From: Syntrophothermus lipocalidus DSM 12680
GTDB taxonomy: Bacteria > Bacillota > Syntrophomonadia > Syntrophomonadales > Syntrophothermaceae
Direction: 5' to 3'
DNA length: 64,000 nucleotides
NCBI RefSeq assembly: GCF_000092405.1
Contig: NC_014220.1
Span: 992,001-1,056,000, forward strand
Positions 35,139 through 39,658 of this stretch are shown here, piece by piece. The stretch's first letter is position 1. Each line of letters starts with the position of its first letter. The position numbers were made by a program, and so were the translations under genes. The notes below the pieces were generated by a model that searched no databases, was not told the origin of the DNA, and saw nothing but the letters and a program-made list of their open reading frames with translations.

Positions 35139-35173
35139 ACGACCTTCATTTTGAGAAAAAGGCGGGTGCGTTG

Positions 35174-35836
35174 ATGTCTGACTACGAAATTATCTTAAAA
35201 CTGGCCTTGGCTTGTTTTCTGGGAGGCGTTATAGGGCTGGAAAGAGAGAGTCTTAACCGCCCTGCCGGCTTGCGCACCTATACCCTGGTTTGTATGGGTT
35301 CGGCCTTGGCCATGATTGTGTCTTTAGACATGTATTATCAATACGCGCACACGGTAAATGCGGACCCGGGAAGAATTGCGGCCCAAGTCGTGAGCGGAAT
35401 CGGTTTTCTGGGAGCAGGTACCATCATGCGCGAGGGCGCAAACATAAGAGGGTTGACTACAGCCGCGGGTTTATGGGTGGTTGCTTGTATTGGCTTGGCG
35501 GTAGGAGCAGGTATGTATCTGCCGGCGGTTATAACCACTGGTCTCATACTTTTTGTGCTTGTTTACTTTGTGAAATTTGAAGAGAAGTACACCGGCATGC
35601 GGGAATATAAAGGGTTTCTGGTCGTTGTCGATGACAAGCCAGGACAGGTGGGGCGGATTGGTTCAGTTTTAGGGGATATGAACGTCCTTATCAAGAATAT
35701 TCAACTGGAAAGGGTGGAAGAGGAAGGGCTGGAAGTGGAACTCCTCCTGCAGCTGCCCCCGAATGTGACCCCGGACCAGGTCGCCGATGCCCTGCAGAAC
35801 GCGCCCGGATGCCGGGAGGTAGAGAGGCTCAACTAG
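35174..35836 (+). CDS. MgtC/SapB family membrane protein
   Basis: MgtC-type proteins influence magnesium homeostasis and ATP synthase activity. The N-terminal domain has about five membrane helices with GGVIGLERESLNRPAGLRTY, then SGIGFLGAGTIMREG and IRGLTTAAGLWVVACIGLAV, the family signature. A C-terminal ACT-like domain (about 145-221) includes DDKPGQVGRIGSVLGDM. ATG 35174 follows a TTG. It lies between proS and polC, not a usual location, and without a visible Mg-sensing leader. Confidence 0.92.
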   Translation: MSDYEIILKLALACFLGGVIGLERESLNRPAGLRTYTLVCMGSALAMIVSLDMYYQYAHTVNADPGRIAAQVVSGIGFLGAGTIMREGANIRGLTTAAGLWVVACIGLAVGAGMYLPAVITTGLILFVLVYFVKFEEKYTGMREYKGFLVVVDDKPGQVGRIGSVLGDMNVLIKNIQLERVEEEGLEVELLLQLPPNVTPDQVADALQNAPGCREVERLN

Positions 35837-36001
35837 CAGTTCAACCCCTGGACTCATCTTTTGGAGGGTAACACCGGTACAAGGCACGGAATGGAGGGCC
35901 GGATCCCTTGGCAAACGCCCTTTAACGAGATGCTCTATGTGATTTAGGTTTTGCAGCAATATGGGACCGTGTACTTATCGGCACCGTTGGGAGGAATATT
36001 C

Positions 36002-39000
36002 TTGGACTGGGAGCGTTTCTTGCGAGAAAAGCTGAGACTGAAGCCTAACGTAAATTGGGAAAGAGCTCAGTTGACCAAGGTTCAAGTTAGCTTGGGAGAA
36101 AGGCGCTGGGACATACATGTTAGGACAGAACGCCTTGTGCCTACGGCGGACCTGGAGCTGGTGGAAAGGCTATTGAAAGAAGAGATTGGGCTGGACGCCG
36201 AGGTCAGGCTCAACATCGCTCTGGTTGACGTCGAAGCATGTTTAACCCAAGTATTGGAAGCTAGAAAAAATGAGCTGCTCTCTTTCCTGGTGTCGGAAGG
36301 AATAGAAAAACCAAGTTTAGGTGATATTCACTGGAGGGTTAACGGTAGGTCGATTATTTTCGAGGTTGATGATAGTGAGAAATGGGAGGGGCTGCTGGCA
36401 AGGGACCTCGGGTCACTGGTATCTGAGTGGTTTAGACGTGAATACCGTTGGCAGGTAGTGGCCAAGTGTGTTTGCTCTGCCAGGCCATGGTCAGAGCAGG
36501 AATACCAGGAGGCTTCGGCCGAAGCTGCTGTTTCCGTGGCGAGTTTGTTGGCGGTGCAACCTCATTTGAACGGGCCGCGCAGAACAGTCCGGGGCTCATC
36601 CCGGCGGAAAACCGGTTCCGATGAAAAGCCTGTTCAAGGCACTCGGGCTACCATTGCAGAATTGACCGAGGGATTGCGCCAGGTAGTAGTTGAAGGAGAA
36701 GTGTTCGAAGTACAGCGGCGCCTGCTTAAGGATCAACGGCAACTGTTGACCTGCTACTTGACTGATTTTACAGACTCTATCATGTTAAAGTATTTTTTGG
36801 AGCCGGACGAGGATCTGCCTTTTAAGGAAGGCGATTGGATAAAGGTTCAAGGAGCTACTAGATACGACGAGTTTGAAAAAGAGTTGGTTTTGTCAGTCCA
36901 GGCCTGGGAAACGGCTCCCGTACCCAAGAGGGTTGACGATGCCTCGGAGAAACGGGTTGAACTTCATCTTCACACGGTTATGAGCACCCTTGACGGGGTA
37001 GTCAAGATAAAGGACCTGTTAGAAAGGGTAGCAGAATGGGGACATAAGGCGGTAGCGATAACTGACCACGGTGCGGTTCAAGCCTTCCCCGAGGCCTACG
37101 ATTATGCTAAGCTCAAGGGTATCAAACTGGTTTATGGAATGGAAGGGTATCTGGTCGATGATCTGAGACAGAAACAGGCCTATCACATTATAATCCTGGT
37201 GAGAAACCGAGAAGGGTTGAAAAACCTTTATCGATTGGTCAGCAAATCTCACCTGGAGGGTTTTTACCGTAACCCGCGCATTTTGCGAAAACAATTGGTC
37301 GAGCTGCGAGAAGGCTTGATACTCGGAACGGCGTGTGAAGCGGGGGAACTCATTACCGGTTACCTTCAAAACAAGAGCGATGATGAGCTCGAAAGGATAG
37401 CTTCTTTTTATGATTTCCTGGAGATTCAACCGTTAATGAACAACGAATTCTTGGTTAGGGAAGGACGGGTATCCTCGTTCGAGGATCTCATCCAAATGAA
37501 TCGCTACATAGTAGAATTAGGAGAAAGATTAAACCTGCCGGTCATAGCCACCGGAGATGTTCACTTCTTGGATCCCCACCACGAAGTTTTCAGGAGGATT
37601 CTGCAGGCCAACAAAGGGTATGAAGATGCCGAAGCCCAGGCCCCGCTGTATTTGCGCACCACAGGAGAAATGTTGGCGGAGTTTGCGTATCTAGGAAAGG
37701 AGAAGGCTTATCAGGTTGTTGTCATCAATCCTAATCGGCTAGTAGAAGGCGTAGAAGACCTGCAACCCGTGCCAGACGGCAACTTCTTTCCATCTATTCC
37801 GGGAGCTGAAGAAGAGATTAAAACTTTGGCTTGGGAAAAGGCTTACCAGATGTATAGCCGTCCACTGCCGGAGCTGGTCAGAGAGCGTCTTGAGCGGGAG
37901 CTCGCGGCCATCATAGATAACAAGTTTAGCGTGCTGTACCTGATTGCTCACAAGCTGGTGAAGAGGTCGAATGAAGACGGTTATCTGGTGGGATCACGTG
38001 GGTCTGTCGGGTCGTCTTTGGTTGCTTTTCTTATTGGAATAACCGAGGTTAACCCTCTCGTTCCTCATTATCGATGCCCGAACTGTTTTTATACCGAATT
38101 CGTAAATGATGGATCGGTTGAGTGTGGTGTCGACCTGCCAGATCTAACCTGCCCGAGGTGCGGGCAACGACTCGTTCGCGATGGACACGACATTCCTTTC
38201 GAGACTTTTCTCGGCTTTGAGGGAGACAAGATACCGGATATAGATCTTAACTTTTCTGGGGACTACCAGCCACGAGCTCACCAGTACGTGGAAGAGATAT
38301 TCGGGAGTGAACACGTTTTCAGGGCGGGTACGATAAATACCCTGGCCGAAGCTTCGGCTATTGGAATGGTAAAAAATTATGCGGAAAAGAACGGGCTTCA
38401 CCTACGCAAAGGCGAGGTGCTGCGACTAGCTAGGGGCTTGGCCGGGGTGAAGAGGACGACTGGCCAGCATCCCGGGGGGCTTATGGTGGTCCCGCGCGAG
38501 CGGGATGTACACGAATTTACGCCTCTGAACTACCCTGCCAATAAAGCGGAGAGCGGGATCATAACTACTCATTTCGATTATCACTCCATAAGCGAACGCC
38601 TAGTCAAGCTGGACATCCTTGGCCATGATGATCCGACCATGATCAAAGTGTTGGAAGACATGACCGGTTACCGGGCCTTGGATATTTCTTTGGATGACAG
38701 GGAGACTATGAGGCTTTTTTCAGGGGTTGAACCCCTGGGGGTTACCCCCGAAGCTATTAGATCCGCGGTAGGAACCTACGGCGTGCCGGAATTCGGCACG
38801 CGCTTCGTGAGACAGATGTTGGAGGTGACGCGTCCGCAAACCTTTGGGGAGTTGGTCAGAATCAGTGGTCTGTCCCACGGCACCGACGTCTGGCTCAATA
38901 ACGCACAGGAATTGATTGAGAATGGGACCGCGCCTTTAAAAGAAGTCATAGCGACTCGCGATGACATAATGACTTTTCTAATTCATAAGGGGATGGACAA

Positions 39001-39658
39001 AAAGCAGGCTTTTCGGATTATGGAGAACGTAAGAAAAGGAAAGGGCTTGGTACGGGAAGAGGTCCAAGCCATGCAGGAATACCGAATTCCTGCATGGTAC
39101 ATAGACTCCTGCCAGAAGATAAAGTACATGTTCCCCAGGGCCCATGCCGTAGCTTACGTTATGATGGCCTTTCGCATAGCCTATTACAAAGTCTATTACC
39201 CCCGGGAATTCTACGCGGCGTTCTTCAGCGTAAGGGCTGAGGATTTTGACGCCGAAGTGATCTTAGGGGGCTACGACAAGGTCAGACAACGGGTAGTCGA
39301 GATCGAAAAAATGAACAGCAACGCTGCGCCTAAAGACCGGAAACTCTTGCCTGTCCTAGAGGTGGCGTTGGAGATGTACGCGAGGGGATTCCGGTTTTTG
39401 CCCGTGGATTTGTTGCTTTCCGATGCTACTCGATTCTTGGTTACAAAGAAAGGCCTGCTGTTGCCGTTTTCGGCGTTGCCGGGGCTAGGGGAAAAGGCGG
39501 CCCTGAGCATTATAGAAGCTCGCAAGCTAGGGACGTTCGCGTCGATTGAAGACTTGCAGTTTCGGGCCGGTGTTTCCCGAGCTGTGGTCGACACCCTCAA
39601 GCGAAACGGGTGTCTGCACGACCTCCCGGAGACCAGCCAGTTGAGCCTGTTTGCTTAG
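36002..39658 (+). CDS. polC: DNA polymerase III PolC without the DEDD exonuclease insertion
   Basis: PolC is the Gram-positive replicative polymerase. The frame opens at 35951; TTG 36002 with GGGAGGA six bases upstream is preferred, giving 1218 residues, against about 1430-1440 for usual PolC. The OB fold is followed by the PHP domain (HLHT, TDHG). After YGMEGYLVDD (near 37150) the chain goes straight to QKQAYHIIILVRN, where other PolCs insert the DEDD exonuclease. The palm has PDIDLNF and KLDILGHDDPT. Zinc-binding CPNC...CPRC and a C-terminal QLSLF clamp motif are present. All expected PHP metal ligands seem kept. Confidence 0.95.
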   Translation: MDWERFLREKLRLKPNVNWERAQLTKVQVSLGERRWDIHVRTERLVPTADLELVERLLKEEIGLDAEVRLNIALVDVEACLTQVLEARKNELLSFLVSEGIEKPSLGDIHWRVNGRSIIFEVDDSEKWEGLLARDLGSLVSEWFRREYRWQVVAKCVCSARPWSEQEYQEASAEAAVSVASLLAVQPHLNGPRRTVRGSSRRKTGSDEKPVQGTRATIAELTEGLRQVVVEGEVFEVQRRLLKDQRQLLTCYLTDFTDSIMLKYFLEPDEDLPFKEGDWIKVQGATRYDEFEKELVLSVQAWETAPVPKRVDDASEKRVELHLHTVMSTLDGVVKIKDLLERVAEWGHKAVAITDHGAVQAFPEAYDYAKLKGIKLVYGMEGYLVDDLRQKQAYHIIILVRNREGLKNLYRLVSKSHLEGFYRNPRILRKQLVELREGLILGTACEAGELITGYLQNKSDDELERIASFYDFLEIQPLMNNEFLVREGRVSSFEDLIQMNRYIVELGERLNLPVIATGDVHFLDPHHEVFRRILQANKGYEDAEAQAPLYLRTTGEMLAEFAYLGKEKAYQVVVINPNRLVEGVEDLQPVPDGNFFPSIPGAEEEIKTLAWEKAYQMYSRPLPELVRERLERELAAIIDNKFSVLYLIAHKLVKRSNEDGYLVGSRGSVGSSLVAFLIGITEVNPLVPHYRCPNCFYTEFVNDGSVECGVDLPDLTCPRCGQRLVRDGHDIPFETFLGFEGDKIPDIDLNFSGDYQPRAHQYVEEIFGSEHVFRAGTINTLAEASAIGMVKNYAEKNGLHLRKGEVLRLARGLAGVKRTTGQHPGGLMVVPRERDVHEFTPLNYPANKAESGIITTHFDYHSISERLVKLDILGHDDPTMIKVLEDMTGYRALDISLDDRETMRLFSGVEPLGVTPEAIRSAVGTYGVPEFGTRFVRQMLEVTRPQTFGELVRISGLSHGTDVWLNNAQELIENGTAPLKEVIATRDDIMTFLIHKGMDKKQAFRIMENVRKGKGLVREEVQAMQEYRIPAWYIDSCQKIKYMFPRAHAVAYVMMAFRIAYYKVYYPREFYAAFFSVRAEDFDAEVILGGYDKVRQRVVEIEKMNSNAAPKDRKLLPVLEVALEMYARGFRFLPVDLLLSDATRFLVTKKGLLLPFSALPGLGEKAALSIIEARKLGTFASIEDLQFRAGVSRAVVDTLKRNGCLHDLPETSQLSLFA

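Follow-up and report, generated by a model that had tools for sequence, protein, structure and literature searches.

The PolC polymerase encoded in the window (the whole stretch of 64,000 nucleotides analysed here, C1:992001-1056000 of a 2,405,559-base single-contig genome) genuinely lacks the proofreading exonuclease usual for this enzyme. It is quite probably a working replicase that has lost the domain and relies on the metal site of its own PHP domain for proofreading. The polC gene (36002..39658, + strand) encodes 1218 residues in an uninterrupted frame, the length given in the initial annotation. Its likely start is a TTG at 36002, shortly preceded by GGGAGG, a probable ribosome-binding site (35989..35994, + strand), and the frame is free of stops over 35951-39658. 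The gene setting is ordinary. Going by their ORF translations, we take the 5' neighbours to be dxr, rseP, ispG, proS and then an MgtC-like gene, and those on the 3' side to be rimP, nusA, ylxR, an L7Ae-like gene, infB, rbfA and truB. The MgtC-family gene (PF02308), at 35171-35836 between proS and polC, has an ACT-like C-terminal part.

The protein was identified as PolC by both Pfam and NCBIfam, with matches to the PHP, Pol3 alpha, finger, HHH and PolC N-terminal domains. It scores 1501 bits against NF001688 (cut-off 873), 1378 bits against TIGR01405 (cut-off 1043) and 25.9 bits against PF14480 (cut-off 22), where the structural model shows a five-strand OB-like region. A C-terminal beta-clamp binding motif, QLSLF (39638..39652, + strand), follows the consensus QL[S/D]LF (PMC3919608). 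A Pfam search of the protein found no RNase_T domain. The chain runs directly from YGMEGYLVDD into LRQKQAYHIIILVRN (∼37133-37210), with no frameshift or stop, and the DEDDh exonuclease of other PolCs (∼200 residues) is replaced, in both alignment and model, by a loop of 13 residues (37145..37183, + strand) that lies between the PHP ligands E398 and H412. Across 158 aligned PolCs, the stretch from the PHP Glu to the next His measures 12-27 residues in exonuclease-less and 198-217 in exonuclease-bearing proteins, while two outliers measure 39 and 84. In the AlphaFold2 model (residues 240-1235, 38 sequences, mean pLDDT 90.4, pTM 0.79) the exonuclease site is closed, two strands being joined there via the short loop. 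The absence of the DEDD exonuclease, as first noted from this locus, is thus borne out, and the alignment with many PolCs that had been proposed as a check confirms that the short form is real and common to the order.

Every relative across the order with a complete PolC gene shows the short form, and PolC is matched strongly in 38 of the order's 40 near-complete genomes. An even sample of the phylum comprised 179 genomes of at least 90% completeness; 133 had a PolC match and 127 could be read through the exonuclease site. A working exonuclease is absent from 77 of these 127 PolC genomes (61%) and present in 50. Many of the genomes are drafts, so that single absences may be gaps. Megasphaera, Colibacter and Epulopiscium are among the named genomes without it, and all full-length PolCs of Bacilli (110/110) have the exonuclease-bearing length. 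Besides relatives of Megasphaera, a scan of genome contigs returned few exonuclease-less PolCs, and many other C-family polymerases ranked below them. The Epulopiscium PolC (L247) is of the exonuclease-less form, and two Lachnospiraceae loci (L285 and L307) are exonuclease-bearing.

All nine PHP ligands are present in the window PolC (HHDHEHCDH, in the motifs HLH, D, TDH, E, H, C and DVH). They had looked complete from the outset, and alignment recovers nine of nine. Counted from 35951, which gives numbers 17 higher than in the 1218-residue form, they are H339, H341 and D348 (HLHTVMSTLD, 36965..36994), H373 (TDH, 37067..37069), E398 (37142..37144), H412 (37184..37186), C462 (37334..37336), and D536 and H538 (DVH, 37556..37564), all on the + strand, with D536 corresponding to the catalytic D226 of Mycobacterium tuberculosis DnaE1. 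The site has the pattern HHDHEH[C/H]DH of PHP-type proofreading exonucleases of the M. tuberculosis DnaE1 kind. The D226N and D23N changes abolish the PHP exonuclease of that enzyme and also destabilise it, so that the PHP domain has a structural role as well (PMC5636811). The full HHDHEHCDH site is found in all 108 of the PolCs compared that lack a working exonuclease. Since the exonuclease-less set has only 28 invariant columns among the 214 of the PHP domain, the chance of all nine ligand columns falling among them is ∼3e-9. Better conservation of the ligands in exonuclease-less than in exonuclease-bearing Clostridia was expected but not found: they are equally conserved in the exonuclease-bearing clostridial PolCs (44/44), and conservation by itself is therefore no proof that the PHP domain has taken over proofreading. 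At ∼70% polymerase identity, mean PHP identity is 0.615 for exonuclease-less PolCs, 0.583 for exonuclease-bearing PolCs outside the Bacilli and 0.554 for Asn-type Bacilli, a comparison that is descriptive because the pairs share branches and are not independent.

The two sites show a reciprocity. Among 69 Bacilli loci, the eighth PHP ligand is Asn in 53 and Asp in 15, and one locus reads HHDHTEADH. The latter, L200 (G244), is a divergent Bacilli PolC that keeps an exonuclease-sized insert and has a broken PHP site in the alignment. Over 197 rows, 78 PolCs have no exonuclease and Asp, 60 have exonuclease and Asp, 59 have exonuclease and Asn, and none combines a missing exonuclease with Asn. The Asp-to-Asn change thus occurs in 59/119 exonuclease-bearing PolCs vs 0/78 exonuclease-less ones, and no PolC compared lacks both the exonuclease and the PHP Asp. 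The change is limited to one class, with 4 changes on the tree, so the reciprocity rests on few independent events.

Loss of the exonuclease can be followed in one genus that deviates in PolC exonuclease state within a family of 16 genomes, the remaining aligned members of which have the domain intact. Two PolCs of this genus, from two species and separate assemblies (L130 in G183, L321 in G345), keep an exonuclease-sized segment that is dead: VVLALATTG or VVLALGTTG stands in place of VVVDIETTG, and PNPGSGW or YNTGSGW in place of HNAxFD, HHRAGDD is missing, and all five DEDDh residues are lost. Between the two, the dead segment is less conserved (70% identity) than the sequence upstream (84%) or downstream of it (93%). 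In a third species (L121, G155) a short linker of low complexity is what remains of the segment. Both L130 and L121 retain their PHP ligands. A PolC of another family (L106, G123) carries 84 residues of low-complexity sequence at the exonuclease site, in a genome without RNase_T, and is probably another recent loss.

Trees built without the exonuclease columns (IQ-TREE and FastTree) imply 7-8 changes of exonuclease state, and the strong branches of 63-row trees force 3-4. A single origin of the exonuclease-less form is rejected under LG+G4 (AU p = 1.8e-8 with all rows; p = 0.003 with the rows of visibly decaying lineages left out). The direction of change is loss in the genus with the dead domain; losses can be told from gains in this genus alone, given the weak support of deep branches and the unrooted trees. 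In the other lineages the direction is presumably also loss. The dead and deleted domains of the genus contradict the view, put forward in 2026, that PHP but not DnaQ is lost from Pol III.

The most probable explanation is that the inserted DEDDh exonuclease was lost from PolC, and that a zinc-type PHP site would remove misincorporated nucleotides, as in mycobacterial DnaE1. The PHP domain would then be the sole built-in proofreader of the window PolC, its site being presumably catalytically active and proofreading for the polymerase. Clostridial PolCs may have been able to dispense with the exonuclease because their PHP site stayed active; in Bacilli, where this site is mostly inactivated, the exonuclease presumably cannot be lost. 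On balance, it also seems fairly likely that Clostridia-like PolCs shed the DEDDh domain several times, leaving PHP for all replicative editing, that Bacilli went the opposite way and gave up PHP catalysis, and that the two proofreaders are interchangeable with at least one always kept. Some species would, on this joint account, be left without any DnaQ-type domain.

The genome contains eight PHP-domain matches: DnaE1, a second DnaE, PolC, PolX and four others. The second DnaE (L160, G000:C1:2178500-2183000, 1045 aa) reads HHDHEHCNH, with Asn at the eighth ligand, and scores too low to pass any equivalog or subfamily DnaE model. DnaE1 (1137 aa) has a complete HHDHEHCDH site as read from its sequence, and this would suit an arrangement in which PolC itself goes unproofread and has a limited job, with DnaE1 performing the accurate bulk synthesis or editing PolC errors in trans. 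A split of roles has been suggested by Timinskas et al., some Clostridia having DnaE1 alone (PMC3919608), and in B. subtilis the exonuclease of one polymerase serves the other. Such an arrangement is nevertheless unlikely, given that the PHP ligands of PolC are invariant, that the window PolC retains its clamp motif, and that PolC is matched strongly in nearly all of the near-complete genomes of the order, as counted above.

Proofreading by a separate DnaQ-like or other nuclease is less likely still. The search covered three families (PF00929, PF01612 and PF13482), and the genome yielded zero matches to PF00929 (DnaQ/RNase_T) and zero to PF01612 (Pol I type 3'-5' exonuclease). The initial annotation, which had proposed this search for stand-alone DnaQ proteins, offered either a separate DnaQ or PHP proofreading; the first finds no PF00929 protein to stand on, and the second is favoured. 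PF00929 was matched in all 50 exonuclease-bearing genomes of the phylum sample, an internal control indicating that the search works. In the order, 42 of 61 genomes have no PF00929 match. Among the 77 exonuclease-less genomes of the phylum sample, 25, this one included, have no RNase_T match at all, which weakens the idea of a separate DnaQ, and in 14 others it is restricted to frames of 889-990 aa, as long as DinG-like helicases; the remaining 38 have at least one match outside such long helicase-like frames and could accommodate a separate enzyme. Candidates of other kinds in this genome would be PolX, with its PHP domain, and a YprB-like RNase_H_2 protein with TPRs, the sole DEDD-fold protein found, but proteins of the YprB type also occur where the PolC exonuclease is kept, as in the B. 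subtilis control. An assembly error or frameshift as the cause of the missing domain can be ruled out for practical purposes: the frame is continuous and its flanks intact, as had been described, on a single 2.4 Mb contig, and relatives across the order share the short form.

The PHP-proofreading account bears on a long-standing question. PHP proofreading has been demonstrated for DnaE (Mycobacterium, Thermus); none was found for PolC in the literature searched, nor was an enzyme assay of any exonuclease-less PolC. Exonuclease-less PolCs in DnaQ-free genomes allow a clean test of PHP as the only proofreader of a PolC replicase, and the trade-off between exonuclease and PHP makes the role of the conserved PolC PHP site directly testable. 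The question also concerns PolC-directed antibiotics, because PolCs with and without the exonuclease may not edit alike or tolerate nucleotide analogues equally well.

The initial annotation was unsure whether this variant had been tabulated, and it has: Timinskas et al. (2013) found, in Clostridia and Negativicutes, PolCs without the Exo insertion, which amount to 6% of PolCs and 16% of PolC + DnaE1 systems, and described the PolC PHP sites as strongly conserved, leaving their role open (PMC3919608). A 2026 survey described three active proofreaders in most Clostridia (PMC12926913). The kind is therefore already known, and the window holds a clear example; what is added here is the prevalence, the genome-wide absence of DnaQ, the reciprocity of exonuclease and PHP, and the decay series, none of which was found in the papers searched.

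Like the exonuclease-less class of Timinskas et al., the window PolC has no Exo insertion in its PHP domain and co-occurs with DnaE1 in the same genome (PMC3919608). The present picture differs from theirs in the proportion of exonuclease-less forms (61% here, 6% there), in the genome-wide absence of DnaQ and in the decay intermediates. The PolC of G. kaustophilus (PDB 3F2B, crystallised without its exonuclease) is alike in fold and domain order (TM 0.94 against the window model, 52% identity). It has Asn in the PHP site where the window PolC has the catalytic Asp, and with this one altered ligand it is without PHP exonuclease according to the 2017 authors (PMC5636811). M. tuberculosis DnaE1 (PDB 5LEW, 7PU7) shares with the window PolC the nine-residue PHP site and a chain without inserted exonuclease, but is a DnaE of ∼20% identity to it, and the loop lining its DNA path has 29 residues rather than 13. 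The PolCs of Bacilli, from the PolC + DnaE3 system, are orthologous to the window PolC, but unlike it they are always exonuclease-bearing in the sample and mostly carry the Asp-to-Asn change in their PHP site.
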